Of a stretch of DNA of 64,000 nt, positions 14,865 through 53,637 are shown in pieces (the first letter of the stretch is position 1; each line of letters opens with the position of its first letter). A program made the position numbers and the translations under genes. The stretch spans positions 109,668,219 through 109,732,218 of the forward strand of contig OX457024.1 in assembly GCA_949752745.1 (NCBI GenBank). Reading direction: 5' to 3'. The notes beneath the pieces were generated by a model that saw only the letters and a program-made list of their open reading frames with translations, ran no database searches and was not told the origin of the DNA. Source of the stretch: Protula sp. h YS-2021. Its lineage: Eukaryota > Annelida > Polychaeta > Sabellida > Serpulidae.

Positions 14865-14869
14865 CTACT

Positions 14870-18354: not shown

Positions 18355-18356
18355 AA

Positions 18357-18412: not shown

Positions 18413-18454
<42 letters not shown>

Positions 18455-18791: not shown

Positions 18792-18823
18792 TTTCCTGAA
18801 GGATAGGAAAATTTTTAGCATGG

Positions 18824-19020: not shown

Positions 19021-19029
19021 TCATCATTT

Positions 19030-19778
19030 TTTACATTACTTTGCCTAGCAATGCTAGTATGAACTATTATCCCAACAACAAGGCTTCGAATCATCAAATT
19101 CGTATGCCTCGAACCATCTATCTGAACGGAAAATATGAAGTGGCTTTAGCTGAAATTTAATATCCACATACATGGACAACCATGAGACATGGAATGGACT
19201 GTTCTATTCAGTATCGACAACAACCACTGACAGATTCTGTCCTTGACACAATCACTATTCCTTATGGTTATTACAGAACCATACAAGAGATATGTAATGC
19301 AGTGAATGAAGAAGCGCCTAATTCTATGAAAGATGAACTGAAACAAGCTATTCGGTTAAAGTATGATAAAATTAGACGACAAGTTTTTCTTTTCCTAAAT
19401 TGCAACTTTGAAGTGTCATTCTCCGCTGGATTAGCTGAAATTTTAGGATTTATCCCAGATCAATGGTATACTGAAACGTGTACAGCTGAACATAAAGCCG
19501 ATGTGAAACTTTGATCTTATACACTTTATGTGCATTGCAGCATTTGTGAACCACAAGTTGTTGGCGATTATTATGTTCCTTTGCTACGTTCTGTTCCCAT
19601 TCAAGGCCATGATGGTGATATTATCATGAAAACTTACGGCGAACCACATTATGTTCCTGTAAACACGTTCAAATTTGACGTGATAGAAATGAATATTAAG
19701 GACGACACAGGCCATAATGTTCCATTTCAAACTGGAAAGGTGATCTGTGAACTTCATTTTCGACCAAAAGCATTATGA
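19030..19778 (+). pseudogene. Decayed penton-like capsid gene
   Basis: It is homologous to 8408-9169. The start is lost. In-frame stops occur at about 19158 (TAA for Gln) and 19512 (TGA). The intervening segments 19182-19514 and 19530-19778 stay open. The overlap with the next gene (ATGA) is retained. Confidence 0.75.
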
Positions 19779-19999
19779 AATCCTACACACACAGTCCGTC
19801 TGCATATCTCAGCCATTTTCGTCGTCAGGTTGGCGAGGAATTACCAGGATTCAAAGGAGCGCGAATCCAGTATGGCGATGGTATTGGTTCAATACTGGAA
19901 TCATTGGCTCGTACAGCTATTCCACTACTTAAGGCTGGGGCTAAGATCGTTGCGCCACATCTTAAAAAGGCTGCAAAGAATGCATTTTTCAATTCATAA
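19775..19999 (+). pseudogene. Truncated copy of the small basic virion-type protein
   Basis: The N-terminal ~70 residues including YGDGIGSILESLART are present. The basic C-terminus is replaced at about 19984 by sequence from the end of the convergent small gene, marking the deletion that removed the major capsid and protease genes. Confidence 0.7.
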
Positions 20000-20255
20000 A
20001 TCAATGAATGCCATTCATTACAATCTAAATTAATATATGTATCATAGAAACATTACACCCGCATTTGTAAATGCTATGAAAGCTCACATAACTCGCATCA
20101 CTAAACTTTATCACTTTAACAGTTTCATGTTCAGACAGTTTCAGTTCATATCCATCTTCATTAATGTCTATGTCCATCACACGCATAGGCTGTGTCAGCT
20201 CAATGGACTTGGTACCCCGCATAAGTTGTATTCCTTCCTCTTTGAATTCAAGCAT
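19985..20255 (-). pseudogene. Copy of the third small PC4-like gene, 3' end lost
   Basis: ATG at 20255 (MLEFKEEGIQL) overlaps the end of the previous gene. A frameshift occurs near YGYNV of the parent and the 3' end runs into the deletion junction near 19984. Confidence 0.6.
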
Positions 20256-20589
20256 AAGGTTCTTCCCAATCCAATGCTTGTAACACCATGTTCCATTCCA
20301 CTGTGCTGAGGGTGATGATGTCGTAGTGTTCTGTAACCTCGTCATGTTATCGAAATTGTACAAACACGTCTAGACAGTTCTGAGTCACACGCACTTCTAA
20401 TTCATTTGAGACTGCTAGGAAAGAGCGGGGTATCCTCAGCTTGTCTAGATGATCCTTCAACACGGTTTGTTCGTCAGGCGATAGTATGATATACTTTCCA
20501 AAATGTCTTAGCACAATGTCATCACATAAGTTTCTCATATATGAGAATCCATATGTGATGGGTTCATAATCCAGCAAATAGTCCTCCAT
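20248..20589 (-). pseudogene. Copy of the second small PC4-like gene, in-frame stop
   Basis: Start MEDYLLDYEP at 20589. It encodes Cys where the Polinton-1 copy has its stop, but has its own TAA at 20347-20349 (CAA in Polinton-1). A TATAAATAG box lies ~30 bp upstream (about 20619-20627). Confidence 0.65.
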
Positions 20590-20624
20590 CTCGTTCAACT
20601 ATGAGCTGTTTCGTCTATTTATAC

Positions 20625-20981
20625 CTAGATGATGGCAAAGAATGGATGCTGCATGATCTCTAGGAATTGTATGACTGCGTACCATTTTTTTATATTAAAG
20701 TCAATCAAATCTGTATATGGAGTATCTGGTACATCTCCATCATAGTCCTTTAGATAATCCTGCAAAATATTTTTCCAGAATCTAACACGTATGTCAGAAT
20801 CATGTCCAATCACCATCACTTCAACATTATCTTCAAGTTTACGTTTAAACCCAGGTTCAAGCGGTATGTTTTGAAAGCCTTTCCACACTTCAGGTTTAAA
20901 CCGATAAACACAATTTATCATCACTTCATTCATATCATTCACGGTGAAATAAACACCATCGTTAAACATGAGTACGCTCAT
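20625..20981 (-). CDS. Copy of the 124-aa small protein, open (118 aa)
   Basis: Open frame with GVYFTVNDMNE at the start and IKKWYAVIQFLEIM at the end, matching 5000-5374. Preservation in a decayed element suggests either recent decay or chance. Function unknown. Confidence 0.55.
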   Translation of the reverse strand: MSVLMFNDGVYFTVNDMNEVMINCVYRFKPEVWKGFQNIPLEPGFKRKLEDNVEVMVIGHDSDIRVRFWKNILQDYLKDYDGDVPDTPYTDLIDFNIKKWYAVIQFLEIMQHPFFAII

Positions 20982-20996
20982 GATGACAGTGCCTTG

Positions 20997-21356
20997 TTAT
21001 GCGCTGTCTTCTTCTCTTCGAAGCCTTTTATCCACTTCTTTCACTTGCTTCTTCAGCATTTTCCATTCAGGTATTGTCAGCGAAATTCCCTTTTTCGTAG
21101 GACGGTTTCTTCCAGTCCCCTCATCTCTGAGGTATTTGCGAATGTTCACGACTCCTTCATTGCTTTGTTTCATAATCTTGATATACTTTCCATTGCCTAG
21201 AGAAAGCATTCCCTCCCACGACTGTGGTGTAGGTGTCGTCTCCACTTTCAATTTCTTGATGGTGGTGGTATTGTCAGGATTTTTCACTTTCAAGTCTTTA
21301 GCTGTATCTTGAAGAGTATCCATATCCTTTGCAGATCTTTTCCGATTCATGTTCAC
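20997..21356 (-). CDS. Copy of the PC4-like protein, open (119 aa)
   Basis: The full PC4 core is present (GNGKYIKI, VNIRKY, PTKKGISL, LKKQVKEVD), nearly identical to 4636-4986. It starts with two closely spaced Met (MNMNRKRS); the second matches the Polinton-1 start. It is the best preserved gene of this copy. Confidence 0.7.
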   Translation of the reverse strand: MNMNRKRSAKDMDTLQDTAKDLKVKNPDNTTTIKKLKVETTPTPQSWEGMLSLGNGKYIKIMKQSNEGVVNIRKYLRDEGTGRNRPTKKGISLTIPEWKMLKKQVKEVDKRLRREEDSA

Positions 21357-21412
21357 GCTTCAGTGTTCACACCTCAACTAACTCTCAAGTTGAAGAGTCT
21401 CCCGATTATATA

Positions 21413-24400
21413 CTGTAATGTCCATGCGCCAAAGTGGAATAGCCATAATTCAGCACATATCGCTTGTCGTCATGGGGAGAGAGAGCCACTTTCCTCATCT
21501 TCTCCGAGAAAATCTGGTGGTCATGACTTGACGAATAATGTGCCCTGTAGCCATCGTTTGAGCTTGGTTGAACAAACTGTCTATATACTGCTTATGTTTC
21601 ATATGTCTTTGACACGCGCGAGTGATAACCTTTAGCCGTACGTTTTTGTTTCCCACCATACATGATACTATCCATTTTAGGCCGAACTCCAACAAACTCT
21701 TCAATGGGGATGCCCGCCGTCTCATCCTTCATTTTTCCAAGCACTTTTTTGTTCACGTTGGAATGCAGGAAATGATCTGGTGGGTAGTCACTTGTGTCAA
21801 ACAGGTCAGCATCTTCCTGCATGTCCTTGTAGATATCGTCCGTTTCTATGTCGTAACATAGACTGTCGGTGTCGCTGAACAACAGCTTGGCGTCGGGATA
21901 CTTGGTCAGGATGTAGATGTGATGAAAGTGAAACATGAGCACTTTGCTGAGGTCGAGAATGGTGAAGCTGACTTGAATGGGTTTATCCAGAAGCAAATCC
22001 ACTTTGCGTAAGTGTACAGCGGTCAAATCTTCGTTAAAATTCTATATTTGTGGAATGAAGGTTTAGCTACAAGTGTTCACACCGCTTGAACCGCTTTTCC
22101 TGGTGAACGAGTTCAACATTCATGCGCTTTCTCACATTTTCCATGGTTTTGCCAAACACAGAGTTGTTCATCAGTTTGAAGAAGTCTTTCTCAAACGGGT
22201 TCTTGGCCAACTTTCTTTTTTCCGTGTTCAAGGAGATGTATTTCTCAAACCATTTGCTCTGAGCAAACATGATGGCACGGTGCACTTTGGTGACTTTCAA
22301 TCCCAGTGAGACATACTGCTGTAAATTTCTATAATGAAGCACATATTTCTTCTTGTCACACAAGTTGGGAATGAGCTTTTCACTGGGTTTGTCTGTCATG
22401 TTCAGATCTTTCCGTAGCAACTGGCTATGTGCTGACAATTCTCCCACTTTGATACTTTTCCGTTCTGGAGCCACTGGGTAGTGATTATGACGATCATGAA
22501 TGGTCTGCGGGTATTCTAAATCCACTTCTAAAATGTATCTTATGTCGTCATCTTCATCCATATCCATGAAGTCGACGAATTTTGGCTCGCTCACCCACAT
22601 AAATCCACTTTCTGGCATGCTATGCGACATGGCCGAACCATAGAGGTTGTTTGCATCCAGCTACACCTGGTAATTGGTTGGACTTGTGGGATCGTAATCT
22701 GCTACGTAAGGGTTATTTGCTATCGCATACTGGTGCGTGATGACAGATATTCCTCCACGTAGACCTTGTTCAACCATTTGGTATATATCAATGTCATTGA
22801 TCAAATCCAACTTCACCTTTGTTGCTTTTAACATCGCATCCCACGACAGTCCTGGTGCTGTATAGTAGTGAGCAGGATCCAATTCATACGTGTTAAGACA
22901 TTCTTGACGAAAGTTTTCAAACACGTCAGCCAGCAGTAACACATCTGATTTCACGTTTAGATCATGGTATTCGCCAAATGTAGTACAGATGAATGTATCC
23001 CATACCTTCTGCGCATGCGCATAATCCTCATCGCTGATGTCTTCTTCACTGAGTTGGCTGTAAAACTTGTCCTTGGACGGTAGTTGTGCTTCAGCAAACT
23101 TGGATGACTCATCCACGTAATCGTAGGGGTACACTCCCTTTCTCAACAGTACATCTTGTCGGTCACTGTCGTGAATGTTTGACGTCATGTTGTAGAAGTT
23201 ATCTTTCCCTTCTGCCGCAAGGCTGGATATCAACTTCTGCAGAGAAGTACTCATAAACTGATACCTGTCCGTAAATTTCAGATTGCTCATGGTGAAAGCA
23301 ATATATTTCTCAACAGTGTTGGGAATGACTGTAATCGTTTCATTTTTGAACTTTCCAATTTCTTCCATGATCAAATGGCTGTCATAGCCTCGCAAATTGT
23401 GGAAAAACACAGGAATGATAAAGGAATCTTTATCGTCCTGCTTGTCCTTTCTAAGTCGAAATTGAAAGTTGCACTCACTATTCTTGAAATTTTCTTCATC
23501 TTCACGAGTCATCACCATTGTCTTTGGCTGTTGTAAACCATGCACAATATGATCACGCTCATTCACTATATGGTCTAAAAGACTTTCACGGCATTGTCTC
23601 CTCGATTCACGACTGGAGCACGTATGTCATACTGGCTAACAACCACACAAGCGAAGCTGTTTGGACGATGATGCTGATACTTGTCTCCTTCTTCATGCTT
23701 TTTCGTGAAACATTCAAAGTCTGCATAAATCACAAAAGGCGCTCTTCACGATGCTTGTCTACAAGTTCTTGACGCCTAAACCCGTGAAGACAGTTGAAAC
23801 AATAAAAAGCAGCTCCATCATGTTTTGATCGATAGGCCATAAGTCTGCTGAAATTCTTGATGAGGCAGCAATGCCTTTTCTTGTCATTGCTAATCAAAAG
23901 TAAGTTGATTTCTCTGGCACTGGTGTTTCGACTCAGTTGTATTGGAACAACTACATCATGTTCATATCCAAACACATAGACATATCGTTCTCCTTTTCAA
24001 ACTTTGAAATGTCTGCAACGGGTGTTGGAAATGTCATGCCTTCCACCTTTAATCCCTTCTCAAATGGTTTGTATTGATTCACACGGCATTGTTTTCTGTT
24101 TGTTGAAGGGTGAAGGTGAGCCAATACAGACCATAAGAAGCACTTGTTGTCGTCATTCTTAATGTTTAATACACCCTTCGTATTCTTCACTTTCTTCTGT
24201 AGTATGATAAAACTGCTTGCTGTGGCGCTGACGTGGCTGTATGTACTTCAATATACAGTATGTTATCCAACACTCAGCCAGAACCTTGTCGCTCATGTTC
24301 ATCAAACTTGGTAAACAATTCTTTATAGGCTTCTGGAAAGTCCTTCTCAATATCCGCTGGATTGTATGCTGAATATGTTGGACTGCTGATGAAGGCATTA

Positions 24401-24665
24401 TCAACTTGTTCTACCATAACACCTTCAGCATTCGTCGTCAGTTTCTTGAAGCGTGCATGTACGACAATATACTATTTCATTCCACGGTTTAACGTCTCCA
24501 ACACATGTGCCTTGATCCGATTCTCTTGCTTCAAGTAGCAAATCTGATCCATCTTCAGACTCAAACCGTCTTTCCTGTGCGTTTTCACCAAGACTAACTC
24601 TTCGGCCCTTGCCTACTTGTACTGTCTTTTGTTCTCCAATCGGTACACATGCATGTGCCTCAAAC
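21413..24665 (-). pseudogene. Decayed copy of the protein-primed DNA polymerase
   Basis: The same motifs as Polinton-1 are spread over at least six frames: LLFSDTDS (motif C) in 21592-22026, NNSVFGKTMENV (motif B) in 22067-22630, and HNLRGYDSH in 22661-23566. Multiple frameshifts separate them. A 93-bp in-frame deletion removes the endonuclease VII-like zinc motif near 23480. The N-terminal zinc-finger part is missing because the BEL/Pao LTR begins at 24666. Confidence 0.85.
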
Positions 24666-24851
24666 GAAAATTATCTTCAAGTTTGACACGAGAAAGATAT
24701 CAAATAACGCCATTAACCATCTGGAACTTATCATCCGGGAAGGGTATCCTAACGAGAATGTAGTGGCCGGCACCAACAGGGAATCACTAACTCGTCAAAA
24801 TCTACAGAAACACAATTAAAACAAATACAGCTACTGGTGACTCCACACTTC
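24666..24851 (-). repeat. 3' LTR of the BEL/Pao element
   Basis: It aligns with 30799-30972 (shared GAAAATTATCTTCAAG, ATAACGCCATTAACCATC, TACAGCTACTGGTGAC). In element orientation both begin TGT(A/G)(A/G)AGTCACCAG. The two LTRs differ by scattered substitutions and a small indel. Confidence 0.75.
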
Positions 24852-24957
24852 CCCCGATGACCAGATATGGTCATCCAAAACCGAAAAGTCAACAGTCCTA
24901 ACACAATGTAACATGCACGTACAGAAATCTTCACACTAACAATTGACTATATATCGC

Positions 24958-26055
24958 ATGTATACGGGCACAATCAATCCGACCCTTCCAAGAGACATAA
25001 CTTGTGTATTGGCCGGACGTATTCGGATGCGCCGCATCGGACGTTGCAGCTTCTGACAAGGTTATCGCGACCCCTGAACACTTCGGTGACCAGGGCAAGC
25101 GGCCATCGACCCCTAGCGAGATTCTCGACGAGCATGAGCACAATATCGCTGGGCTGTACGTTACGATGGCTGCGTTGCCACTTGCAACGCATCTGGAGAG
25201 AGGGCAGGTATTTTTTGGTCCAACGTTACCAGAAAACATTGGAGAGATATTGGGTCTGCTTCCATCACCTCCTAGCATAATTATCGTCCTTGGTAAAGAT
25301 ACCGTAAGGAAGGCTTGTTGTCTCTCGCATCAACAACAACTGGGCTGGTGACAATGCCTGCACGTCGCGTGAGTCCGCAGTGACCTGTGTCATCGGACGA
25401 CTGTTTACGATGCGCTCAGCCATGAAAGTGAGCAACGTCTCTCAATGGTTGCCTACCGATAACCTTGGTAACGACGTCACGAACCGAACGAATGAGTCAT
25501 TAAAACACTCCGCCCATGTGGCTGGTCTTGGGCGGACTGAACTTCCATTCTATTTCACGTTGAACTAAATTGGCGTGTATCTGACGCTGATTGCACTCTT
25601 CCAGCGATTCGCGCAGCTCCCGTTCGCCGGACCTCAGGTTGATCCCATTGTCTGAGAAAATCGTCAGTGGTCTACCCCAACGACTGATAAATCTGGTGAT
25701 TGCAGCAAGGAAGGAGTCAGTATCTAAACTGTGGGCCACTTCGATGTGGATTGCTCGAGAAGCCATGAAAATAAACAAGCACCCATACCTCTTGCACTGG
25801 CTTCGTTTCACTGTCACCATGACTGGCCCGGAAAAATCAACACCGACGTAGCTGAATGGTGGCTTGTCGGGAGTGACTCGCTCCCTTGGCAACTCGCCCA
25901 TTTGCTGCTGCATAGAGTGTTGTCGTTGACGCCGACAGATGATACATTTGGATGTCACACTCTTGCATGCTTGCAAGCCATTATCGATCCAGTACATCTG
26001 CCCCAGCCGCGTAAGAACATGCGCCGGGCCCGCATGACCGTGCATGCGGTGGTAA
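24958..26055 (-). pseudogene. BEL/Pao integrase and DUF5641 region, broken
   Basis: The zinc-binding H-H-C-C part (HGHAG...CIICRRQ) and the integrase core (VGVDFSGP with D, FSDNGINLRS with D) are visible. After SHMGGVF two adjacent stops (TAA, TGA, near 25497-25502) stand where the family has the catalytic Glu and an Arg. A second segment (24974-25192) matches the DUF5641 C-terminus (DIVLMLVENLARGRWPLALV, YVRPIHKLCLLE). Confidence 0.8.
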
Positions 26056-26172
26056 TTCTATATAAACATAACTGTCACTGGATGCCTTTGTGGAAGAATG
26101 ATCTGGTGAACTGCAAACTCAGGAAGGCTTGAATTTTTAATGCGCCCGCATTTACCAAACACTCATCCACAT

Positions 26173-27996
26173 TTATTTCGGGATCTTTGGGTTCAATACT
26201 GGCATAGCTCCAGGCGGCCATTCACCTTCGTCCTCTTCCAACCATACCTTAATTTGGGAGAAGTCGGAAGCAGGGATTCCACGGGATGCAAATTCCGCCG
26301 GATTCAGCTTTTTTGGAACATAGTGCCACTGCTCTATGCTGGAACTATCCAGTATTCGTGATATCCTGTTTGCAACAAAGGTCTTGAAGCGTTTCGACTG
26401 ATTCCGGAGATAAGCTAAAGCAATCATTGAATCAGTCCAGAAAATAGTCTTTTCAGTTTTAAGGTCAAGCTCAAGCCGTAACAAGTCACTGAACTGACAG
26501 GCTAAGACAGCGGCTGAAAGCTCGAGTCTGGGGATAGTGACCGCCTTTATTGGGGTCAGGCGTGATTTGCCCATAGCAAGTGCGGTGTGCACATGGTCCG
26601 CGCCATCCACATATCTGAGATATGCACAACATCCATACCCAGATTCGGAGGCATCTGAAAAGATGTGCAATTGAATTGACTTCAGAGTCCTGAACACCTC
26701 TGGTTTATAGCAGCGGGGAATTTGGACCGTTCGTAAATTGTGCAGCTGACGACACCACAGTCGCCAAACATTCGCGTCATCTTCACTAATGCCGTCATTA
26801 CACTTTATTTTTAATTTGCACAGTTTCTGTAGAAGCTGCTTTGCTCTCAGCGTCACAAGAGCAACCAATCCCAAAGGGTCATAAAGGGAAGCGACGACGG
26901 ACAAAATTCCTCGTCGAGTGAAGGGCTTTTCCTGTTCGTTTGTGACGAAGGTTATGGCATCTCGTTGTATGTTCCAATAAACACCGACTGCCCGATCCAT
27001 GGCATCTTCCGAACTGTCAAGAGATAAGTTGTTTGACAGCGGCGCTCTTTCGACCTCTGGTATCAAGGTAAGCACCGCATTACTGTTCGATCTCCATTTC
27101 GTCAAATGAAAACCTCCCTTTGAAAGCATTTCTCTGAGTTCTTGTGACAGGGCAACAGTCTGTTCTTCGGATGGAACTGACTTAAGCAGGTCATCCACAT
27201 AAAAGTCGCGCAAGATTGTGGCTGAGGTCTCAGCTGAAAATGCGTGTTCGTCGTCCGAGGCGGTTTTCCGCAAGCAAGAGGCGGTGCAACTTGGGGACGA
27301 TGTAGCCCCAAAGATGTGCACATTCATCCTGTAGATTTCAATTTCCTTGTCGGGGTCCCCATCCTTCCACCACAGGAAGCGAAGGGCGTCGCGGTCACCC
27401 AGGCGTACCCTGACCTGTTGAAACATGGGCTCAATGTCAGCAGAGACTGCTACCTTTTCTTGACGAAATCGTAAAAGTACGCCGATCAAGCTATTAAAAA
27501 GATCGGGGCCCTGCACCAGCTGGTCGTTCAGTGATGTGCCACGGTATTTCGCGGCACAATCAAAGACGATCCTAACCTTTCCAGGTTTGTTAGCACTGAC
27601 TACTACATGATGCGGAAGGTACCATGTTTTCGAATTCACAGTTTGGACTTGCTCGTCCACCTTGCTCGCGTAACCTTCCTTCTTGTATGTTTCTATCTGA
27701 GTCACGTACCTATGCTGCAGGTCTGGATCCATAGCGAGCTTGCTTCCTAGGTACTTAAGCCTTTTCTCTGCTAATGCTCGGTTGTTTGGCAACCACACAT
27801 TATCGTCTTTCCAAGGAAGCGCCAGCTGGTAGTGACCATCAACATATTTGGTCGTGTTTTCCATTTCTCTGCAAGGCCGTTCTGTCGTTTTGCGACATCG
27901 ACTTACCTTGCTCACCTGTATCTCCAAACTCTGTGGTCCACATCCTTTGTAGCTGTAACTCCAAAGCTTGGTCCTTTGCATCCACAAAATTAACAC
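26173..27996 (-). pseudogene. BEL/Pao reverse transcriptase and RNase H
   Basis: A 607-codon open stretch. The RT has the first catalytic Asp in VSADIEPMFQQV and the YVDD box in FYVDDLLKSV. The RNase H-like part has HIFSDASESGYG, IPRLELSAAVLA and FWTDS. It overlaps the protease frame at its N-terminus, so a frameshift separates protease and RT in what is normally one polyprotein; I therefore treat the whole as a decayed pol. Confidence 0.85.
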
Positions 27997-28450
27997 TTGT
28001 GTCGGTCATGTGACCTTTGTGGACAGGCCTTAAAACTGTCCACCCGAGGATCGAGCGAATAGCATAAGGCTCGTCGCGCAAGCCTCGCCTTTCCTCAATG
28101 GACCAGAAGGCTTCCGGAGTATCGCTTCTAATGAGGAGCATTACTTCATTGGAATCAATCTCCGGAATGTCTATGTCGGTTAGATGTGTCCACTGTGTGG
28201 CCTCTGTTTTGCGGGGTAAACATTCGATCGAGATCGGAAGACTCGAGACCGACCTGGCACCTTTCACGCTCACACACCCAGTGCCATTCACAGACCTGAC
28301 TTCAAGATTAACTTCGCTGGACTGCACCTTAGTCACGCTATTGATAATTTTGATAGCAAACTCCTTTTCGACACCTTTGATTCCTAACATGTTTACCAAC
28401 CTCCTGTCACACAAAGATGTCGTACTACCATCATCGAGCATCGCGTACAC
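27839..28450 (-). pseudogene. BEL/Pao aspartic protease region (DUF1758-like)
   Basis: AMLDDGSTTSLCDRRLV contains the catalytic Asp in a DDGS motif, followed by typical DUF1758 text (IDIPEIDSNEVMLLIRSDTP, RRGLRDEPYAIRSILGW). The frame ends in the RT overlap. Confidence 0.75.
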
Positions 28451-28467
28451 ATTAACTGACTTTTTTT

Positions 28468-28965
28468 CTATTGGAAACTATGACCGGAAGTACTCTCAGC
28501 ACACTCTACGACGCTCACCGGATGCGGTGGCGGTGCATGTAGCGGTAGAAGACTGTACATTTTCTTCCGGTGTAGCCTTGACCCAAGAGTGTAAGAGCGT
28601 GTTATGTTTCTTATCACACCCCGACACTGTGCACTTGCTGTCCTTACGACAGTCCTTGGCAGGGTGTTTATAACCAAAACAGTTGTCAAACAACTTGTTT
28701 TTTCGAACGTAAGATGTGCAATCGGCGAGGGATGATGCCTTAAATTTCCTACATTCTTGCAGCCACTTACATGCCCTGCCACAACACCTGCATTTTTCAC
28801 ATTGATCTCACCTGTTTCACCGGAAATAACCATCGAGTACCCTTCATTACCTCTACTTGGACCATGTGTCCGTTGTGTACCCTGTCCTTGGGACTTACTC
28901 ATTATTTGACCCTTGCTGACCTTTGCCTTACTTGCAAAATCGAGGCCAAAGGCCGAATTAGCCAC
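28468..28965 (-). pseudogene. BEL/Pao gag zinc-knuckle region
   Basis: Two overlapping frames contain the knuckle pattern (NCFGYKHPAKDCRKDSKC, GCDKKHNTLLH) in 28496-28693 and the preceding Lys/Gly-rich linker in 28468-28965; the frame change between them is a lesion. Confidence 0.65.
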
Positions 28966-29061
28966 GTTAGCTTGGTGTTCTACGAATTTACAAAGGTCAG
29001 CAAATGATACCGATGGTCCGCTTTCAGTGACAGAGTACGCCTTATCAACCCATTTCGATTC

Positions 29062-29589
29062 CTAATACCCAGTTAGGCGGCTAACCATGCGCCGCACATT
29101 TTTGGAGTTGTTTATTTCGGATTTAAACCCCAGCTGACTCAAACTAATTTGAGCTCTTGACATTTCAAGTGACAATCTTTGCAACCCTTTACTGTCATTT
29201 GGTTTAATACGCGCACGCGCAATAATGTGCGCTTTACCGTACCGTGAATTCAACAATTCTCGCACCTTGGCATACCCGGAATCTTCCAACAAAATACACG
29301 ATTCTATCAACTCCTTTGGTTCGCCACGACAAAACTGTAGCAAATAACTCAACCTCAATTTGTCATCATGCACCCTAGCCTCGATGTTACTCTCGAAATT
29401 GTATATGAAACTGGAGTATTCAATAACCGTACCCGAAAAATACATCAATTCTGGCTTGGGGAGATTAACATTTGACTGTAGCACTTCAGACAATTTCATA
29501 ATTACCGAATTAGTATCATTTATGAGTGCACTGTTGTCTCTCAGTGGTACGTTATAACTGGTGACGTCATGGCGCACAGGCGCTGGCAA
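29062..29589 (-). pseudogene. BEL/Pao gag DUF1759 region
   Basis: LPKPELMYFSGTVIEYSSF and KLRLSYLLQFCRGEPKELI match the gag-derived DUF1759 domain of BEL/Pao elements. A stop near 29062 separates it from the zinc-knuckle part. Confidence 0.75.
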
Positions 29590-30169
29590 ATCCTGGCTGG
29601 CACGATGGACCTTGAGATATTGCCCTCAGATAAGAGGTTGACAATCGACGGGACTCCCTGGACTGCTTTGCCGATGTCGACGTCGTCTCGGTGACATGCA
29701 GCCGCCGGGCCAACCAGGCCCACTGCACTGGGTTCAATGTCTCGATGGCGTACAGGTGCCATGACACCCTGGCCCGCTGTACTTGTTTCCGGTCGCTCAG
29801 CAACGTCACGTCGAGGCGCTGTTCAATCTCGGCCCGTATTTCGTGTTCTAAACGTGCCTGCTCTACGTCGCGTTGAGCGTTTAGCAGGTCCTTCTGTTGG
29901 GCTAGCTCTTCACATTGTCGTTTCAGTTCATTTTCACGACGCGAAAGCTCAAATTGTTCCGTTAATTGTTTTAATTGTTCCTTGGCCATTGCTTCCTTTC
30001 TCTTTATTGAAGAGCTCACAGAAAAGTTCGAAACTACTGGCCTTTTCTCCATCGGCTGCTCAGTGGCATTCCGTATCCACTGGTCAGCATGTTTGATGAA
30101 CTCCTCATGGTTCGTTTGTTGGCTTATGTAACTTTCAGCCAGCTTAGCTAACTCCTCCTCATTGCGCAC
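29567..30169 (-). pseudogene. BEL/Pao gag N-terminal coiled coil
   Basis: A Glu/Gln/Lys-rich heptad-like segment (KRKEAMAKEQLKQLTEQFEL...QCEELAQQKDLLNAQRD) predicts a coiled coil typical of BEL gag N-termini. It runs out of frame near 29730. A further related upstream stretch (30170-30290) is closed by stops. Confidence 0.6.
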
Positions 30170-30291
30170 AACACCAGTGTACTACACGTGTACTTCTCGG
30201 AACTTAAGGAACTGTTCCTCAATTGATCGCACACATTTTTCGAGTTCGCTTTTATTAGCGCGATCGCTCATGAGTTCTTCGGCTAGCTTAT

Positions 30292-30798
30292 AAAGCACCG
30301 CTATGCGTCCGATATGGCCAGAGAGTGAGCGTTTCACGATATTTCACGCCCACATATTTCTCCCTCCGTCTGACGGGTCGCCCGTGTGGCTGTTGTGCCC
30401 GCGTCAGATGCCATTTCAGGTTCACAATTTTGCACACAATTCTCAAACTGTTGCAAACGCGGGATATAAACACTCTCCTTTACGCGCTTTTATTCCGTCG
30501 AGAAACTATATACACGTGAATAGGCGGATAGCTGTTAGCGAATAGCGAATAGCGAATAGCGGTTTGAGAATTTTGTGTAATCCCGGTTCATAAGAATAAA
30601 CTTAAACCATTTCTTACTTAGATTGCTCACAAAAAAAAACATTGAAACTAAAGCGAAACACGTGCGCACTAAATGCTGATTAAAACGTGAATGGGATCCG
30701 GGAAAGGCACATTTGTAAACCCACGCCAGAACCAACGCTTCGGCGGGAAATTTCTGAAAACGCAAGGTAGGAAGGGGGAATGTGGTCAGAATATGAAA
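30292..30798. other. BEL/Pao 5' leader
   Basis: Between gag and the 5' LTR. It contains a short TAGCGAATAGCGAA repeat (30536-30558). No gene. Confidence 0.4.
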
Positions 30799-30972
30799 GA
30801 AAATTATCTTCAAGTTTGACACGAGGAACATATCAAATAACGCCATTAACCATCTGGAACTTATCAACCGGGACGGGCATCCTAACGAGAATGCACTGGC
30901 CGGCACCAAACTAACTCCTAAAAATCTACAGAAACGCAATTAAAACAAATACAGCTACTGGTGACTTTACAG
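30799..30972 (-). repeat. 5' LTR of the BEL/Pao element
   Basis: Direct-repeat partner of 24666-24851. It is followed on the + strand by a TTTG/TTG run and then pyrimidine-rich DNA. Confidence 0.75.
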
Positions 30973-30984
30973 TTAGGTTTGCTT

Positions 30985-31340: not shown

Positions 31341-31400
31341 TTTGGCTTTCTGGCTCAATTCGTTTGCGATTTGAGCACTCTGGGGATTCCCTGTCACTTA

Positions 31401-31955
31401 AAGGGAAATGCGGGTATCTCACCTACAATTGACATTTCCTTCATACTTTCACAGTTTAATGTTTTGAGGGTATAAATCCAAAAATTGAAAAGAAAAGGGG
31501 GGGGTCACCGATGTTATAAGAGAAATAAAGACACTGAAAGGTCGTGTACTTTTACTATGGAAACCATCTGGAAAACCAAGAAATTTCAATCCAACTGCAA
31601 AATTCTCACATAATTACAACTGACAATTGCCTCATTTTTCCCTGTTTGAAGAACACGTCCTACGAAATGTTTTAAGCAAATAAAAAATACATGTCCTCGA
31701 ATCAATAAGAGAATTATACAATCTTTTTGACAAAATCCCATTGACTCAATGGATAAAGGGTGAAAACAGTGTAATATGAATTTAATGGACAATATATCAA
31801 CACAGGCTCTTCTGGGAACAAAACATCAATACAGTTCATTTCTGGACACGACCCTAATTGTCTTTGAAAAGAATTTTTCGATCTAGTCGGATTTAGTAGT
31901 TATTTATACTGTGTAAACATGGATTCAAACGTAGCGATATTCAATGTAATTTTTC
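31401..31955. mobile_element. MITE copy 1, right end missing, carrying the empty site
   Basis: It begins AAGGGAAATGCGGGTATCTC, the inverted form of which ends copy 2 at 53618-53637. The body (TTGACATTTCCTTCATACTT, CACCGATGTTATAAGAGAAA, TGTCTTTGAAAAGAATTTTT) matches 53095-53600. The right terminal repeat is missing; homology stops near TTCAATGTAAT. The GGTATC at 31413-31418 is single, whereas copy 2 carries the 6.75-kb element flanked by two GGTATC. No coding capacity, so a non-autonomous DNA transposon is likely. Confidence 0.7.
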
Positions 31956-46316: not shown

Positions 46317-46334
46317 AAGGGAAATGCGGGTATC
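46317..46334. repeat. Left fragment of MITE copy 2 ending in target duplication GGTATC
   Basis: AAGGGAAATGCGGGTATC, the first 18 bp of the MITE, is cut by the 6.75-kb element. The remainder continues at 53089 with a repeated GGTATC. Confidence 0.85.
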
Positions 46335-46391
46335 AGTAGTTGAAAAACGAGAGTTCTGGACAAAAATTGGCGCCAAAATGACGTCACAGGG

Positions 46392-46423
46392 TGGTCCAGA
46401 ACTCTCATGAGAGTTCTGGACCA
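46392..46423. repeat. 32-bp perfect palindrome in the left arm
   Basis: The two 16-bp halves (TGGTCCAGAACTCTCA and its reverse complement) are exact. The half-site AGAGTTCTGGAC also occurs close to the element end (46350-46361). The palindrome is preserved in the right arm at about 53001-53032. It could be an integrase or replication-protein site. Confidence 0.7.
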
Positions 46424-46593
46424 GATGGTAATTGAAAGAGCGCGCGCCTGTATGAATGACGTCATAATGAGGTCATCATGACGTCATTCGTCACGTGACC
46501 TGTCAATCATGTGTCACATGACCTGTCAATCATGTGTCACATGACCTGTCAATCATGTATATGAGGAAAATTTTCCCGATCATAAACCTTCTG

Positions 46594-46678
46594 GCCTGAA
46601 TGGCTCAGTTGGTAGAGCGCAGGGCCCGTAAGCGGACCCATGATCTGAAGGTCAATGGATCGAACCCGCCCTCGGGCA
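46594..46678 (+). ncRNA. tRNA-like Pol III module (left arm)
   Basis: TGGCTCAGTTGG matches an A box and GGATCGAACCC matches a B box. The D-arm GCTC/GAGC pairs, and the ends GCCTGAA / CTCGGGC pair in six of seven positions including one G-T. The A-B spacing is longer than in a normal tRNA and the T stem and anticodon arm do not fold well. A tRNA-derived SINE-like promoter unit is therefore more likely than a functional tRNA. Confidence 0.45.
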
Positions 46679-46689
46679 TCACTTTCACA

Positions 46690-46828
46690 TCATGGGACCC
46701 CCCCCCCCCCCCTGGTGAAGAATCATATACCATGGGGACCCCCCCTGGTGAAGAATCATATACCATGGGGACCCCCCCCCCCCCCGGTGAAGAAGTATAT
46801 CATATCATGGGACCCCCCCCCCCCCTAG
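46690..46828. repeat. C-run / GGTGAAGAATCATATACCATGGGGACC repeats
   Basis: Four degenerate units with poly-C runs follow the tRNA-like module. A shorter set is in the right arm (52640-52735). Confidence 0.7.
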
Positions 46829-47110
46829 GATGTGATTCAACACTCCTATAAGAGCACATTGTCTGTGCACATATGCATCATTCATGCTCTGACTGCCGTT
46901 GGATACACATGGAAAAAAAGTGAAAACAGTTGCTCTTACCTATTGTGTTGTGCTGTGCTGTTGAAGAACAAGTGAAGGATTGACTGGAATACACATAGGA
47001 GACGAAGTGAAACATTAGTTATTCTTTGGAAAAGGAAAGTGAACGATTGGTTATTCTTTGGAAAGGAAGTGAAAGATTGGAGACGAATTGGCAAAACAGT
47101 CGTGGTAAGT

Positions 47111-47141
<31 letters not shown>

Positions 47142-47224
47142 ATTATTATTATTATGATAATATTTAATTAGTCATATTTCAATGGTTTCCCCATTACAGT
47201 AACCACACACATAGCATAAGTATA

Positions 47225-48150
47225 TGTGTACAGAGTGTGGGGGGAAACCGATTGATAAAATTTAGAGTGCACTCGTACAGAGTGTGGTGGAAAACCGATC
47301 AATAATTTCAGAGTGCGCTCGTACAGAGTGTGAGGGAAAACCGATCGATAATTTCAGAGTGCGCTCGTACAGAGTGTGGGGGAAAACCGATCGATAATTT
47401 CAGAGTGCACTCGTACAGAGTGTGAGGGAAAACCGACCGATAATTTCAGAGTGCGCTCGAGTGTGGGAACAATCAATAAATTTGAGAAGGAATGGGATTT
47501 TCCCTACGTTAAGTCCAATGTTTTGTTTTAAGTTATAGTAGTTGGAAAATGACACTTCTAAAACACATTTAACAAATGTAGTTTTTTGATAACATATAAT
47601 ATATAAAATAAGTTTGAACATTTTAGCATTCTACTTATTTGAATGTTCTAAAGTCATAGTAGTAGAAAAATGGTGGTTCTAGACCAACTTTAGCAAATTT
47701 AGTTTTTAACACCATATGATATATAAAATAAGTTTGAGCATTTTAGCACGCTACTTATTTGAATATTCTAATGTCATAGTAGTGGAAAAATGGTGGTTCT
47801 AGACCAATTTTAACAAATTTTGTTTTTTGACAAAATATGATATATAAAATAAGTTTGAACATTTTAGCACGCTACTTATTTGAACATTCTAAAGTCATAG
47901 TAGTGGAAAAATGGTGGTTCTAGACCAATTTTAACAAATTTTGTTTTTTGACAAAATATGATGTATAAAATAAGTTTGAACATTTTACCATGGTGTAGTA
48001 GGGTAAAAATAAGGGTTCTGGACCAACTTTAACAAATTTTGTTTTTTGACAAAATATGATGTATAAAATAAGTTTGAACATTTTAGCATGGTGTAGTAAG
48101 GTAAAAATCAGGGTTCTAAACCAACTTTAACAAATTTAGTTTTTTTACAC
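47225..48150. repeat. Two tandem arrays in the left arm (~47 bp and ~120 bp units)
   Basis: Five units of GTACAGAGTGTGAGGGAAAA CCGATCGATAATTTCAGAGT type (47225-47465). Then five units containing ATAAAATAAGTTTGAACATT and GTGGAAAAATGGTGGTTCTA (47540-48150). Both are mirrored in the right arm. Confidence 0.75.
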
Positions 48151-48348
48151 GTTTCAGACGATTCTACCACTTGGTTGATTGGTTGATTGTTGGAAAATGA
48201 AAAGTGAAAATGTGGATAGTTATGTAGGAAAACTGCGCCCATTCAAAAGACGTGTTCGAATGGCAAGCCCATTTTAAAGACGTGTTCGAATGGCAAGCCC
48301 ATTTAAAACACGTGTTCGAATAATTTTTGAAAGATATTACGTCGTGGT

Positions 48349-48632
48349 ATTGTTCAACAAATTGTTCAACATGTTCAACAAGTTCAACATGTTCAACATG
48401 TTCAACATGTTCAACAAGTTCAACATGTTCAACATGTTCAACATGTTCAACATGTTCAACTTGTTCAACATGTTCAACATGTTCAACATGTTCAACATGT
48501 TCAACTTGTTCAACATGTTCAACATGTTCAACATGTTCAACATGTTCAACTTGTTCAACATGTTCAACAAGTTGTTCAACATGTTCAACATGTTGTTGTT
48601 CAACATGTTGTTCAACATGTTCAACATATTGT
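48349..48632. repeat. 9-bp GTTCAACAT tandem array (left arm)
   Basis: About 30 units of GTTCAACAT with GTTCAACAA/GTTCAACTT variants. The period keeps three frames open on each strand (NMF, STC and LNM repeats), which explains the ORFs here. The palindromic core AACATGTT recurs in each unit. The mirror copy is at 50950-51237. Confidence 0.85.
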
Positions 48633-48640
48633 ATATAAAG
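48632..48640 (+). promoter_or_regulatory. TATA box in the left arm for the zinc-finger gene
   Basis: TATATAAAG, 52 bp upstream of the ATG at 48693. Its inverted copy (50942-50950) points leftward toward the PC4-like gene. Confidence 0.55.
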
Positions 48641-48692
48641 CTATGTTTAAAGACTTTCTCATCATTTGAATAGTGTAGGTTGAACCGAAAGG

Positions 48693-49427
48693 ATGTATAC
48701 ATGCAACATTTGTTCGAAATCTTACAATTGGCCGCAAAGTCTTAAAATACACTTAAAGGTTGCTCACGCTTCAGAAGTGGATGAAGAATCGGATATGGAA
48801 AACCCTGTAAAACTACCTTTCACGGAAACTTTAGATGAGTCTTCTATGGAAAGTCAAAGCGTCAACATAGCTGAAAAGAATGCACATGCTTGTACAGAAT
48901 GTGGTGCATTATACAACAGCGAAGAAGCTTTGCTCAAACATATGGAGCAGTGTGGTGAGGATGCTGATGACAGGAGTTCTGAAAGTGAGTCAGAAACAGA
49001 CTCTGAAAGTGAGTCAGAAATAGACTCTGTTTGGCATGATATGGTTCAAGAATTCTACGATGACTATGATAACATATTTCAAGAAAAGGTTTCAGAATAT
49101 GAAGAACAAGGACTTGAAGATGCGCGTGAAATAGCAAGTTATGACCTTCGACCCATTTATAAGCATGGACTAAAACAACTGTTTATGAGACTGTTCACCT
49201 ATACCCAGCGTCTAGAACAAAGCAAACATTATCAAAAGATTTTAGAGGACTTTAATTACTTTGTTGATGAAAAACATTATAAGTATTCAAAGGCATTAAA
49301 GGCGGCTATAAGGAAGAAAAATGCATTCTTTGAAGAGCTACTAGATATGGAGGAGGAGGAGGATGGTAGCAGTGACGAAGAAAGTGGCATGGACAGTGAA
49401 CAGAGTGAAACAGATGCAGAAAAATAG
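48693..49427 (+). CDS. C2H2 zinc-finger protein with acidic Ser/Glu region (244 aa)
   Basis: Finger 1 is CNICSKSYNWPQSLKIHLKVAH (C4, C7, H20, H25 spacing). Finger 2 is CTECGALYNSEEALLKHMEQC, a CCHC variant. An acidic Ser/Glu stretch (SESESETDSESESEIDS) follows, then a helical domain with HDMVQEFYDDYDNIF, YDLRPIYKHGLKQLFMRLF and DFNYFVDEKHYKYSKALKAA, and an acidic C-terminus. DNA binding is likely. The helical part resembles uncharacterised C2H2-containing proteins in invertebrate genomes, from memory. The first 16 codons lie inside the terminal repeat. The AATAAA at 49449 ends the transcript. Confidence 0.75.
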   Translation: MYTCNICSKSYNWPQSLKIHLKVAHASEVDEESDMENPVKLPFTETLDESSMESQSVNIAEKNAHACTECGALYNSEEALLKHMEQCGEDADDRSSESESETDSESESEIDSVWHDMVQEFYDDYDNIFQEKVSEYEEQGLEDAREIASYDLRPIYKHGLKQLFMRLFTYTQRLEQSKHYQKILEDFNYFVDEKHYKYSKALKAAIRKKNAFFEELLDMEEEEDGSSDEESGMDSEQSETDAEK

Positions 49428-49448
49428 ACTTATTTGACTAAACTTTAT

Positions 49449-49454
49449 AATAAA
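49449..49454 (+). terminator. Poly(A) signal of the zinc-finger gene
   Basis: AATAAA 22 bp after the stop codon; a second AATAAA is at 49811-49816. Confidence 0.6.
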
Positions 49455-49602
49455 GACTTTATAAATGTTGTAATATTTTATTAAGTTAAGCGTTGTGTAT
49501 TAATATATGTCTTGCTTTGCAACATATAAAGTCGTAAGGTTCCTGGCACGGTTTTAATTGACCCGTAAACCATATATCATATATTAGGTATTATAGTTAA
49601 TT

Positions 49603-49805
49603 TTGTATTATTATGTATTATATTCAAGAATTGTATTATTATGTATTATATTCAAGTATTGTTTTATTATGCATTATATCCAAGTATTGTTTTATTATGT
49701 ATTATATCCAAGTATTGTTTTATTATGTATTATATCCAAGTATTGTTTTATTATGTATTATATCCAAGTATTGTTTTATTATGTATTATATTCAAGTATT
49801 GTATG
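49603..49805. repeat. 28-bp AT-rich tandem repeat between the convergent genes
   Basis: About seven units of TATTGTTTTATTATGTATTA TATCCAAG type. All three frames remain open and give ILYSSIV-type repeat peptides. Confidence 0.8.
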
Positions 49806-49840
49806 AGAAAAATAAAAAGTTGAAAAGCATCATATGTGTT

Positions 49841-49846
49841 TTTATT
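49841..49846 (-). terminator. Poly(A) signal of the PC4-like gene
   Basis: TTTATT on the + strand, AATAAA on the - strand, ~320 bp beyond the stop of the PC4-like gene. Confidence 0.45.
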
Positions 49847-50163
49847 GAACATTACAACTATGTACAATTATGATAAAAACAAAACTATTTCAAATACATA
49901 TTATGTTAATACATGTGCAGAAGAACTTAACTTAAAATTTTATAACAACTGACTTCACATGAACATAGATAAAGTTAATTTCATAGTCTACATATGAAGA
50001 CAATTTAATTTGAACTACATATCAAATGTACATGTCCATATGAGTCAAAGCTAAGTTCTTGTCAAGCTTCAAAACCTTCGGTCCAATCTTCTGCACTGTG
50101 ATGAAATCAAAGCATCCACTAAGCTCGTCATGCTGTTAAAACTGTATACAGTCATCTCGCTTT

Positions 50164-50703
50164 CTACTCAACGATCTTCTGACAGTCACTGCATTTATAC
50201 AGATCCATTTTCTGAAGCATGAGATCCACTGACGCCATTTGCTTCTTCAACATGTGCCAGTCTTTCAATGACAACAAAATGCCCTTCTTGGTAGGATATA
50301 ACCTCCCAGATGCATGATTCGTAATATATTTACGAATGTTAACCATCACTTTCTGTTGATAATTCACCAATTTAATATATGTTTCTCCATTAATGGGTAT
50401 CATAACCGGTGAATCGTTTACACGCATCTTCATGGTGGTATCAGCTTTACGCTCCGGTTCTCGCTTCATATTAGGCTCTGTCGTATTTTTTCGCATTTTA
50501 CACGGCGGCGTCATAGCTGGTAACTCATCTATTTTTATTTTTCTAAGATGTGGTCGCTTTTGACGCTGCTGACGTGACTTCGCCTTAGACTTTACCATGG
50601 GCATTGCCTTAGACTTTGCTGTAGGTATTGTCTCAGGCTTTGCTATAAAATTTTCTGCAGGCATTGCCATAGATGGTAGTTGTTGTTCACTCACTGCAGA
50701 CAT
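50164..50703 (-). CDS. PC4-like protein with long basic N-terminus (179 aa)
   Basis: Residues ~105-168 follow the PC4 core: INGETYIKL, MVNIRKYI, YPTKKGILLSLKDW and MLKKQMASVD. The core closely parallels that of the Polinton-1 gene at 4636-4986. The N-terminal ~100 residues are Lys/Arg/Pro/Met-rich with AKSKAMPMVKSKAKSRQQRQ, and the C-terminus ends CSDCQKIVE. ssDNA or promoter-DNA binding is likely. A TATA-like CATAAAAGG lies at about 50757-50765 on the - strand, and the right-arm TATA box lies further upstream. Confidence 0.75.
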   Translation of the reverse strand: MSAVSEQQLPSMAMPAENFIAKPETIPTAKSKAMPMVKSKAKSRQQRQKRPHLRKIKIDELPAMTPPCKMRKNTTEPNMKREPERKADTTMKMRVNDSPVMIPINGETYIKLVNYQQKVMVNIRKYITNHASGRLYPTKKGILLSLKDWHMLKKQMASVDLMLQKMDLYKCSDCQKIVE

Positions 50704-50941
50704 GTTCTCTCTTCAGTATCTTGATACACAATGTGCGTTATGTCTGAGTGTAGGTACCTTTTATGCTCTATAGGGAGCTGTCACACTCGAGGTTGGACAC
50801 ATGATGTCCTAAAATGTTTAGAAATAACTTTACCATATGCGACTTTGCAGCCAATTGTAAGATTTCGAACAAATGTTGCATTTATACATCCTTTCGGTTC
50901 AACCTACACTATTCAAATGATGAGAAAGTCTTTAAACATAG

Positions 50942-50950
50942 CTTTATATA
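50942..50950 (-). promoter_or_regulatory. TATA box in the right arm
   Basis: Inverted copy of 48632-48640. It would direct transcription through the truncated zinc-finger start and on into the PC4-like gene. Confidence 0.45.
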
Positions 50951-51237
50951 CAACTTGTTGAACATGTTGAACAACATGTTGAACAACAACATGTTGAACA
51001 TGTTGAACAACTTGTTGAACATGTTGAACAAGTTGAACATGTTGAACATGTTGAACATGTTGAACAAGTTGAACATGTTGAACATGTTGAACATGTTGAA
51101 CATGTTGAACATGTTGAACAAGTTGAACATGTTGAATATGTTGAACATGTTGAACATGTTGAACTTGTTGAACATGTTGAACATGTTGAACATGTTGAAC
51201 TTGTTGAACATGTTGAACAATTTGTTGAACAATACCA
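50950..51237. repeat. 9-bp ATGTTGAAC tandem array (right arm)
   Basis: Mirror copy of the GTTCAACAT array at 48349-48632. Confidence 0.85.
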
Positions 51238-52743
51238 CGACGTAATATCTTTCAAAAATTATTCGAACACGTGTTTTGAATGGGCTTGCCATTCGAACAC
51301 GTCTTTAAAATGGGCTTGCCATTCGAACACGTCTTTTGAATGGGCGCAGTTTTCCTACATAACTATCCACATTTTCACTTTTCATTTTCCAACAATCAAC
51401 CAATCAACCAAGTGGTAGAATCGTCTGAAACGTGTAAAAAAACTAAATTTGTTAAAGTTGGTTTAGAACCCTGAATTTTACCTTACTACACCATGCTAAA
51501 ATGTTCAAACTTATTTTTTCATCATATTTTGTCAAAAAAACAAAATTTGTTAAAGTTGGTCTAGAACCCTTATTTTTACCCTACTACACCATGGTAAAAT
51601 GTTCAAACTTATTTTATACATCATATTTTGTCAAAAAACAAAATTTGTTAAAATTGGTCTAGAACCACCATTTTTCCACTACTATGACTTTAGAATATTC
51701 AAATAAGTAGCGTGCTAAAATGTTCAAACTTATTTTATATATCATATGGTGTTAAAAACTAAATTTGCTAAAGTTGGTCTAGAACCACCATTTTTCTACT
51801 ACTATGACTTTAGAACATTCAAATAAGTAGAATGCTAAAATGTTCAAACTTATTTTATATATTATATGTTATCAAAAAACTACATTTGTTAAATGTGTTT
51901 TAGAAGTGTCATTTTCCAACTACTATAACTTAAAACATAACATTGGACTTAACGTAGGGAAAATCCCATTCCTTCTCAAATTTATTGATTGTTCCCACAC
52001 TCGAGCGCACTCTGAAATTATCGGTCGGTTTTCCCTCACACTCTGTACGAGTGCACTCTGAAATTATCGATCGGTTTTCCCCCACACTCTGTACGAGCGC
52101 ACTCTGAAATTATCGATCGGTTTTCCCTCACACTCTGTACGAGCGCACTCTGAAATTATTGATCGGTTTTCCACCACACTCTGTACGAGTGCACTCTAAA
52201 TTTTATCAATCGGTTTCCCCCCACACTCTGTACACATATACTTATGCTATGTGTGTGGTTACTGTAATGGGGAAACCATTGAAATATGACTAATTAAATA
52301 TTATCATAATAATAATAATAAAAAAAAAAATAAAAAAAAAGTCACTTACCACGACTGTTTTGCCAATTCGTCTCCAATCTTTCACTTCCTTTCCAAAGAA
52401 TAACCAATCGTTCACTTTCCTTTTCCAAAGAATAACTAATGTTTCACTTCGTCTCCTATGTGTATTCCAGTCAATCCTTCACTTGTTCTTCAACAGCACA
52501 GCACAACACAATAGGTAAGAGCAACTGTTTTCACTTTTTTTCCATGTGTATCCTCATGTGTCCAACGGCAGTCAGAGCATGAATGATGCATATGTGCACA
52601 GACAATGTGCTCTTATAGGAGTGTTGAATCACATCCTAGGGGGGGGGGGTCCCATGATATGATATACTTCTTCACCGGGGAGGGGGTCACCATGGTATAT
52701 GATTCTTCACCAGGGGGGGGGGGATCCCATGATATGAAAGTGA

Positions 52744-52828
52744 TGCCCGAGGGCGGGTTCGATCCATTGACCTTCAGATCATGGGTCCGCTTACGGGCCC
52801 TGCGCTCTACCAACTGAGCCATTCAGGC
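52744..52828 (-). ncRNA. tRNA-like Pol III module (right arm)
   Basis: Exact-length (85 nt) inverted copy of 46594-46678 with the same A and B boxes, pointing inward like the left copy. Confidence 0.45.
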
Positions 52829-53088
52829 CAGAAGGTTTATGATCGGGAAAATTTTCCTCATATACATGATTGACAGGTTATGTGACACATGATTGACAGG
52901 TCATGTGACACATGATTGACATGTCACGTGACTAATGATGTCATGATGACCTCATTATGACGTCATTCATACAGGCGCGCGCTCTTTCAATTACCATCTG
53001 GTCCAGAACTCTCATGAGAGTTCTGGACCACCCTGTGACGTCATTTTGGCGCCAATTTTTGGTCCAGAACTCTCGTTTTTCAACTACT

Positions 53089-53637
53089 GGTATCTCACCT
53101 ACAATTGACATTTCCTTCATACTTTCACAGTTTAATCCTTTTGAGGGTGTACATTTAAAAATTGAAAAGAAAAAGGGGGTCACCGATGTTATAAGAGAAA
53201 TAAAGATACTGAAAGGTCGCGTACTTTTACTGTGGAAACCAATCAAAATGCAAAATTCACACATAATCACAATTGACAATTGCCTCCATTTTCCCTGTTT
53301 GAAGAACACGTCATATGAAATGTTTTAAGCAAATAAAAAATATATGTCACCGTATCAATAAAATCTTTTGACTAAATCCCATTGACGCAATGGTTAAATG
53401 GTGAAAACAGTGTAATTTGCTTTTAATGGGCAAGATATCAACACAGGCCCTTCTAGGAAGAAAATATCAACAGAGACCATTTCTGGACACGAGCCTATTT
53501 GTCTTTGAAAAGAATTTTTGGATCTGGACGGATTTAATAGTTATTTATACTGTGAAAACATGGATTCAAACTCTGCGATATTCAATGTAATGCGCATTTT
53601 GGTCGCTAGATGGCGCAGAGATACCCGCATTTCCCTT
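53089..53637. mobile_element. Remainder of MITE copy 2
   Basis: It resumes with the duplicated GGTATC and continues TCACCTACAATTGACATTTC as in copy 1, ending with GAGATACCCGCATTTCCCTT, the inverse of its start. Together with 46317-46334 the MITE is about 560 bp long. It has no coding capacity. Confidence 0.8.

Follow-up and report, generated by a model that had tools for sequence, protein, structure and literature searches.

Polintons (Mavericks) are commonly viewed as self-sufficient giant transposons or viruses. Non-autonomous DNA transposons, such as miniature inverted-repeat transposable elements (MITEs), have ends in common with an autonomous partner and no transposase of their own; virophages and other satellite viruses are small, carry their own genes and rely on a larger virus. 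Here we describe an element of 6,754 bp, bounded by AGTAGT...ACTACT, at positions 46335-53088 of a 64,000-nucleotide stretch from the serpulid annelid Protula sp. h YS-2021 (assembly GCA_949752745.1, contig OX457024.1, positions 109,668,219 to 109,732,218 of the forward strand; hereafter the window), which is very probably a satellite of Polintons with two genes of its own. As in MITEs, its ends are those of an autonomous partner and it has no transposase of its own, but it is large and carries two recurrent, promoter-equipped genes, which did not turn up in the same form in those pieces of the partner that we read. Like a virophage, it would depend on a virus-like partner; it differs in that no capsid gene was detected in it and that the partner is an animal Polinton. 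According to the accessible part of PMC8097293, vertebrate Mavericks have an (AGT)2//(ACT)2 end motif and a 6-bp target-site duplication, intact ones measuring 12.7-24.6 kb with arms of 46-1,447 bp. The element has the same end motif and duplication, with arms related to those of long copies in its own genome. It differs from autonomous Polintons in size (6.4-8.6 kb for the short copies found here), in the absence of any detected PolB, integrase, ATPase, protease or capsid gene and, compared with the vertebrate Mavericks, in its arms of 2.2-2.4 kb (about 2.5 kb in a long copy of this genome).

An earlier note on this DNA had described an element of 6.75 kb with arms of about 2.3 kb and a GGTATC duplication, and the measured boundaries agree with that description (Table 1). 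The termini read AGTAGTTG at 46335-46342 and CAACTACT at 53081-53088, and the 12-mer AGTAGTTGNAAA occurs four times in the window, twice at the termini and twice within the arms, against 0.08 expected. The arms are built of tandem repeats and are about 99% alike, with 22 substitutions against some 2,200 identical positions and a few indels, one of which is a 121-bp repeat unit. The proposed empty site was also recovered: put together around a single GGTATC, the flanks of the element align continuously with the repeat at 31393-31950, which is a paralogue at a different locus and of which only 26 bp are matched on the left side, where the repeat starts. This paralogous empty site and the 6-bp duplication together show an insertion. 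Long, near-identical inverted arms are hard to assemble and might result from misassembly or from an inverted duplication that arose locally, an explanation whose probability we consider negligible given that duplications differ between copies, that a paralogous empty site exists and that 18 pairs of ends were found on 8 contigs. Both arms also contain a stretch (GGCTCAGTTGGTAGAGCGC...GGATCGAACCC, at ~46591-46682 and ~52740-52832) that looks tRNA-like from its box motifs; its first part recurs in other short copies, and scans of the window with ARAGORN for tRNA and with Rfam called nothing, this stretch included.

The earlier note had proposed counting copies in the host assembly and asking whether their ends and 6-bp duplications are constant, whether both genes recur and whether full-length relatives exist, and the genome bore it out on these points. 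The 863-Mb genome was searched with the left 301 bp of the element, and the best 40 of 1,809 candidates were scored. Paired by hand, these 40 full-size end matches formed 18 inverted pairs and 4 singles, the window's pair included. Nine pairs, the window's among them, are short (6.4-8.6 kb) and nine are long (17.8-18.3 kb), so that 17 pairs, 8 of them short, exist besides that of the window. The end motif AGTAGT is present in 17 of the 18 pairs, the copy at C2:9.68 Mb having AGTAGG, and AGTAG is common to all. An exact 6-bp duplication flanks 16 of the 17 evaluable pairs, short and long, and the other one matches at 5 of 6 positions; the flank of the pair left out reads N. An automatic flag had found the duplication in 14 of 17 pairs, and the right boundary of the copy at C2:9.68 Mb was shifted by one base by hand. 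The duplicated sequences vary from copy to copy. Each of the two genes gave at least 150 matches in the genome, the best 150 of 6,649 PC4 candidates and the best 150 of 6,366 C2H2 candidates all being 95-100% identical. Judged by these matches, the short element is present at well over a hundred genomic places.

We then compared the long copies with a Polinton lying at the left edge of the same window (hereafter the window Polinton). Pieces were read from three of the nine, and between them they span almost the complete layout. Results showed that these pieces encode an integrase (90% identical to that of the window Polinton), an ATPase (94%), a capsid-type open reading frame (ORF; 86-88%), a protease (81%), a PolB in an open frame of 1,243 amino acids (89%) and a Polinton-type PC4 (91%), as well as a counterpart (69%) of the finger-bearing first ORF of the window Polinton. 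The full-length relatives anticipated by the earlier note, with the same ends and with integrase and polymerase, are therefore present. Integrase genes abound in the genome: the best 120 of 8,824 candidates are all at least 95% identical, and 113 of these 120 have no stop. The terminal 300 bp of the nine short and nine long copies, compared with gap columns left out, are 100% identical between two short and two long copies and between a third short copy and four other long copies, while identity to the long copies is 95-98% for the other six short ones, among them the window's. Within the window, the end of a second, inverted Polinton copy scores 15 against the first 50 bases of the element (best of 30,000 random window positions, 6), and the end of the window Polinton reaches a score equalled by 27 of 30,000 random positions. 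The arm of the window Polinton and that of the element also have a 34-base block in common (28/34 identical), with a score reached by none of 1,000 shuffles.

Given the ends, the duplications, the Polinton genes of the long copies and the identical termini, the element is a non-autonomous member of the Polinton class whose helper is obvious, as the earlier note had supposed; its ends and its 6-bp duplication are of the kind seen in the Polintons of about 18 kb in the same genome, and its arms are related to theirs. The identity of ends between short and long copies strongly suggests that the element moves in trans. The likeness could also be a convergence in a member of another transposon group with 6-bp duplications or with long arms that are repetitive inside (Foldback-like, IS3EU/GingerRoot or Dada): long arms of tandem repeats look Foldback-like. 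In the accessible part of PMC10045372, IS3EU and GingerRoot also give 6-bp duplications; their ends, however, are TA..TA in IS3EU and mostly so in GingerRoot, whereas here they are (AGT)2//(ACT)2. Since the element agrees in its ends and arms with the long, Polinton-gene-bearing copies, convergence is highly improbable and in effect refuted by the identity of the terminal 300 bp.

The likeness to the long copies stops inside the arms. One long copy has arms of 2,551 and 2,515 bp that are 98.2% alike, and the arms of the element match these in blocks that differ in repeat numbers, ending on both sides at the same position of the long-copy arm (Table 1). The core in between looks like a separate module placed inside Polinton arms. 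It begins and ends with inner inverted repeats (48147-48741 and 50841-51435) that consist of 9-bp arrays (the mirror of the left array lies at 50952-51219), the C2H2 promoter and the initial 16 codons of that gene, which in the right-hand repeat soon run into a stop. The earlier note held that the element keeps only a C2H2/acidic protein and a PC4-like protein. The two genes are confirmed, while loss of the others from a full-length parent is not supported, as the C2H2/acidic protein found no match in the pieces of the three long copies at E 1e-5 and the PC4 of these pieces is only 38% identical to that of the element. For this reason the element does not seem to be a deletion of its helper. 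We nevertheless weighed an ordinary internal-deletion derivative, which would retain only the outermost genes of a full-length parent Polinton, now without a role, its central part being gone. Such an origin would explain the arms and ends common to the element and the long copies. Furthermore, a TATA box lies close to the left arm of the window Polinton, the first ORF of this Polinton has weak C2H2-like Pfam matches (E 0.007-0.06, below curated cut-offs) and is the one whose long-copy counterpart is 69% identical, and no clear constraint on the C2H2 gene emerged from the selection tests below. On the contrary, besides the missing C2H2 match and the distant PC4, the gene order disagrees, since the long-copy PC4 lies directly behind PolB and on its strand whereas the PC4 of the element faces the C2H2 gene, and the arms give way to unmatched DNA at one identical position on both sides. 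The parent may belong to another, unseen Polinton lineage, but overall we judge this origin unlikely. A tblastn search of the element with 13 ORFs of the window Polinton (its PC4 was not among them) gave nothing convincing; the best match, of the integrase, had an E of 0.006 and fell in AT-rich DNA of the arms, and nothing significant was found for PolB.

The two genes of the core are convergent, and both are provided with a TATA-like box and with a poly(A) signal. The C2H2/acidic gene has an AATAAA downstream at 49449, and its product contains two fingers (residues 2-25 and 64-86). The PC4 gene has a TATA-like CATAAA from 50765 on the minus strand, 62 bases ahead of the ATG, and an AATAAA at 49846 on the same strand; its product has a long basic N-terminal region. 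Both ORFs (244 and 179 amino acids) exceed the longest ORF obtained in any of 500 shuffles of 48641-50900 (156 amino acids). The satellite PC4 is identical to the window Polinton PC4 at 35 of 87 positions (E 6e-19, 64.7 bits) and to human PC4, the p15 coactivator with which it shares the PC4 domain, at 18 of 57 (41.2 bits), therefore being nearer to the Polinton protein of the only two compared. Among 5.8 billion protein sequences, neither the two satellite proteins nor the window Polinton PC4 had a match at E 1e-3, and scans of viral contigs with PC4, integrase, PolB, a PC4 alignment and an end pattern revealed no relative. Phage records searched with PolB gave weak matches only, mostly annotated as endonuclease VII.

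Gene content was sampled in 38 further copies, 8 found by their ends, 20 taken from the 150 PC4 matches and 10 from the 150 C2H2 matches. The eight other short copies found by their ends have the C2H2 frame in 8 of 8 cases and PC4 in 7 of 8. The 20 hand-picked PC4 matches are all accompanied by the C2H2 frame (16 full or nearly full, 4 shortened), with one PC4 cut by a stop, and the 10 C2H2 matches chosen because they had no PC4 partner among the matches listed proved to have PC4 full in nine cases and truncated in one. The pair thus recurs in nearly all sampled copies, and it is convergent in every one holding both genes. The nine C2H2 matches with a full PC4 form a second group; their PC4 has 188 amino acids and an aligned region about 80% identical to that of the window's PC4, with a C2H2 protein 96% identical; at the DNA level, one of these copies compared with the window is 98.2% identical in C2H2, 97.7% in the intergenic region and 93.1% in PC4. 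Such a pattern could come from a reshuffling of the two genes or from different rates of evolution.

We also analyzed selection on both genes. Within the main group, the ratio of non-synonymous to synonymous changes (pN/pS) of PC4 is about 0.28-0.3. Copies of the C2H2 gene differ by few changes in each pair, with a ratio of 0.20 inside the second group and of 0.58 when the two groups are compared. A function of the satellite PC4 is likely on these grounds, while the case for a C2H2 function is made by its recurrent open frames and promoters. Several results weigh against our interpretation of a satellite with two working genes. For PC4, a comparison of the two groups gives a ratio of 0.90, and the changes within the second group are all non-synonymous (0 synonymous and 3.2 non-synonymous per pair); C2H2 gives about 1.0-1.06 within the main group, so that purifying selection on the satellite genes is only partly supported. 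Frames without stop were counted in 143 of 150 PC4 and 148 of 150 C2H2 matches, numbers that are biased in favour of intact copies, since scoring was limited to the best candidates. The copy numbers of the two genes are lower bounds, and ends were checked in nine short copies only. With gaps counted, the first 354 bases of the window's element are 91% identical to those of one long copy, and the end of the window Polinton, once its first six bases are removed, does no better than 1,029 of 30,000 random positions. For the C2H2 protein, the predicted structure is poor (mean predicted local distance difference test score, pLDDT, 52.6), which makes the role proposed for it a guess from its fingers and acidity. 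Finally, another integrase could act as helper.

Considering these data together, we propose that the protein-primed PolB of the helper would copy the satellite from the shared ends and that the helper integrase would insert it with a 6-bp stagger. More tentatively, the C2H2/acidic protein may bind DNA and activate transcription, perhaps at the 9-bp arrays beside its own promoter, and the PC4 protein may bind single-stranded DNA or promoters during replication. The arms of satellite and helper probably keep recombining, which would leave the satellite ends recognisable to the helper; a repeated exchange of arms is suggested by the fact that identical ends are shared with two different long-copy groups; alternatively, the arms descend from a recent common ancestor. 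A satellite of high copy number, with two genes and with its matching helper in one genome, would show that Polintons have gene-bearing parasites, and the pair would make it possible to ask which ends the helper recognises, whether Polintons form particles and what use PC4 is to them. The element might even be a true satellite virus, with a two-gene linear genome using the polymerase and capsids of the helper and with a C2H2 activator and a single-strand-binding PC4 of its own with which to compete with the helper. We regard this as speculative and rather doubtful; if it were the case, the element would represent a virophage-like third party in animals, with the helper endogenous in the same genome.

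In the open-access literature we found no description of a Polinton satellite, including in the accessible parts of PMC6431247, PMC8504770 and PMC12220804; subscription papers and Repbase lay outside the search, and an entry may exist there. The accessible part of PMC11071308 contains none of the terms sought for such a satellite. Nothing pairing a Polinton with PC4, or with NADAR, was found in the open-access literature. According to the accessible part of PMC9223095, PC4 is encoded by five genes in the bay scallop, of which two consist of a single exon, and some of the five might derive from Polintons, which we mention as a lead only.

Table 1. Coordinates of the satellite element, its empty site and the Polintons of the same window (positions of the window).
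Feature	Position	Strand	Remarks
Target-site duplication GGTATC, left	46329-46334	+	exact 6 bp
Target-site duplication GGTATC, right	53089-53094	+	exact 6 bp
Left inverted arm	46335-48741	+	2,407 bp
Right inverted arm	50841-53088	-	2,248 bp
Left-arm part matching long-copy arm in blocks	46335-48146	+	to position 2483 of ~2550
Right-arm part matching long-copy arm	51436-53088	-	ends at same long-copy position 2483
Satellite core, DNA unmatched in long-copy pieces	48147-51435	.	~3.3 kb
Array of 9-bp unit (TGTTCAACA) beside C2H2 promoter	48363-48627	+	~29 copies; Tandem Repeats Finder
TATA box TATATAA of C2H2 gene	48632-48638	+	
C2H2/acidic protein gene	48693-49427	+	244 amino acids; Pfam zf-C2H2 6.6e-7
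28-bp tandem array between convergent genes	49582-49802	.	Tandem Repeats Finder
PC4 protein gene	50164-50703	-	179 amino acids; PC4 domain 107-154, Pfam PC4 3.7e-10
Empty site, lone GGTATC in uninterrupted paralogous repeat 31393-31950	31413-31418	+	
Window Polinton, kin of the long family	1-15478	.	left end beyond window; right end ACTACT 15473-15478
Window Polinton PolB	1494-4580		
Window Polinton PC4	4636-4986		directly behind PolB; found with satellite PC4 as query
Window Polinton protease	6258-6734		
Window Polinton capsid-type ORFs	6692-8098 and 8408-9205		named by position only
Window Polinton ATPase	10260-10949		
Window Polinton integrase	11048-12052		
Second Polinton copy, inverted, partly deleted	15697-24660		left end AGTAGTATGAAAAGGACAGTTCTG

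The two Polintons of the window are 80-88% identical over their main aligned blocks, and the left end of the first was not found in the 819 bases left of the window. Its PolB, labeled as such from a DNA_pol_B_2 match in the second copy and from the identity between the two copies, is broken over 904-4580 by a stop before 1494 and a frame change further upstream. In the second copy PC4 also lies behind PolB, at ~21350-21000, and the two PC4 genes differ by a synonymous divergence (dS) of 0.235 and a non-synonymous divergence (dN) of 0.070. The capsid-type ORFs, neither of which is named by Pfam, are presumably capsid genes from their position and their likeness to the Polinton gene order as generally known. 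Three further ORFs of the window Polinton appeared PC4-like by eye and were not used, as they gave no Pfam match and PDB was unhelpful for the two tried. The window Polinton also carries a NADAR-domain gene (12600-13058, Pfam 4.4e-17), for which no match was found in the long-copy pieces at E 1e-5. Beside the second Polinton copy, two direct repeats (24663-24850 and 30796-30974) are 88% identical and delimit a stretch (24663-30974) whose ORFs resemble, by eye, those of a BEL/Pao-type retroelement.

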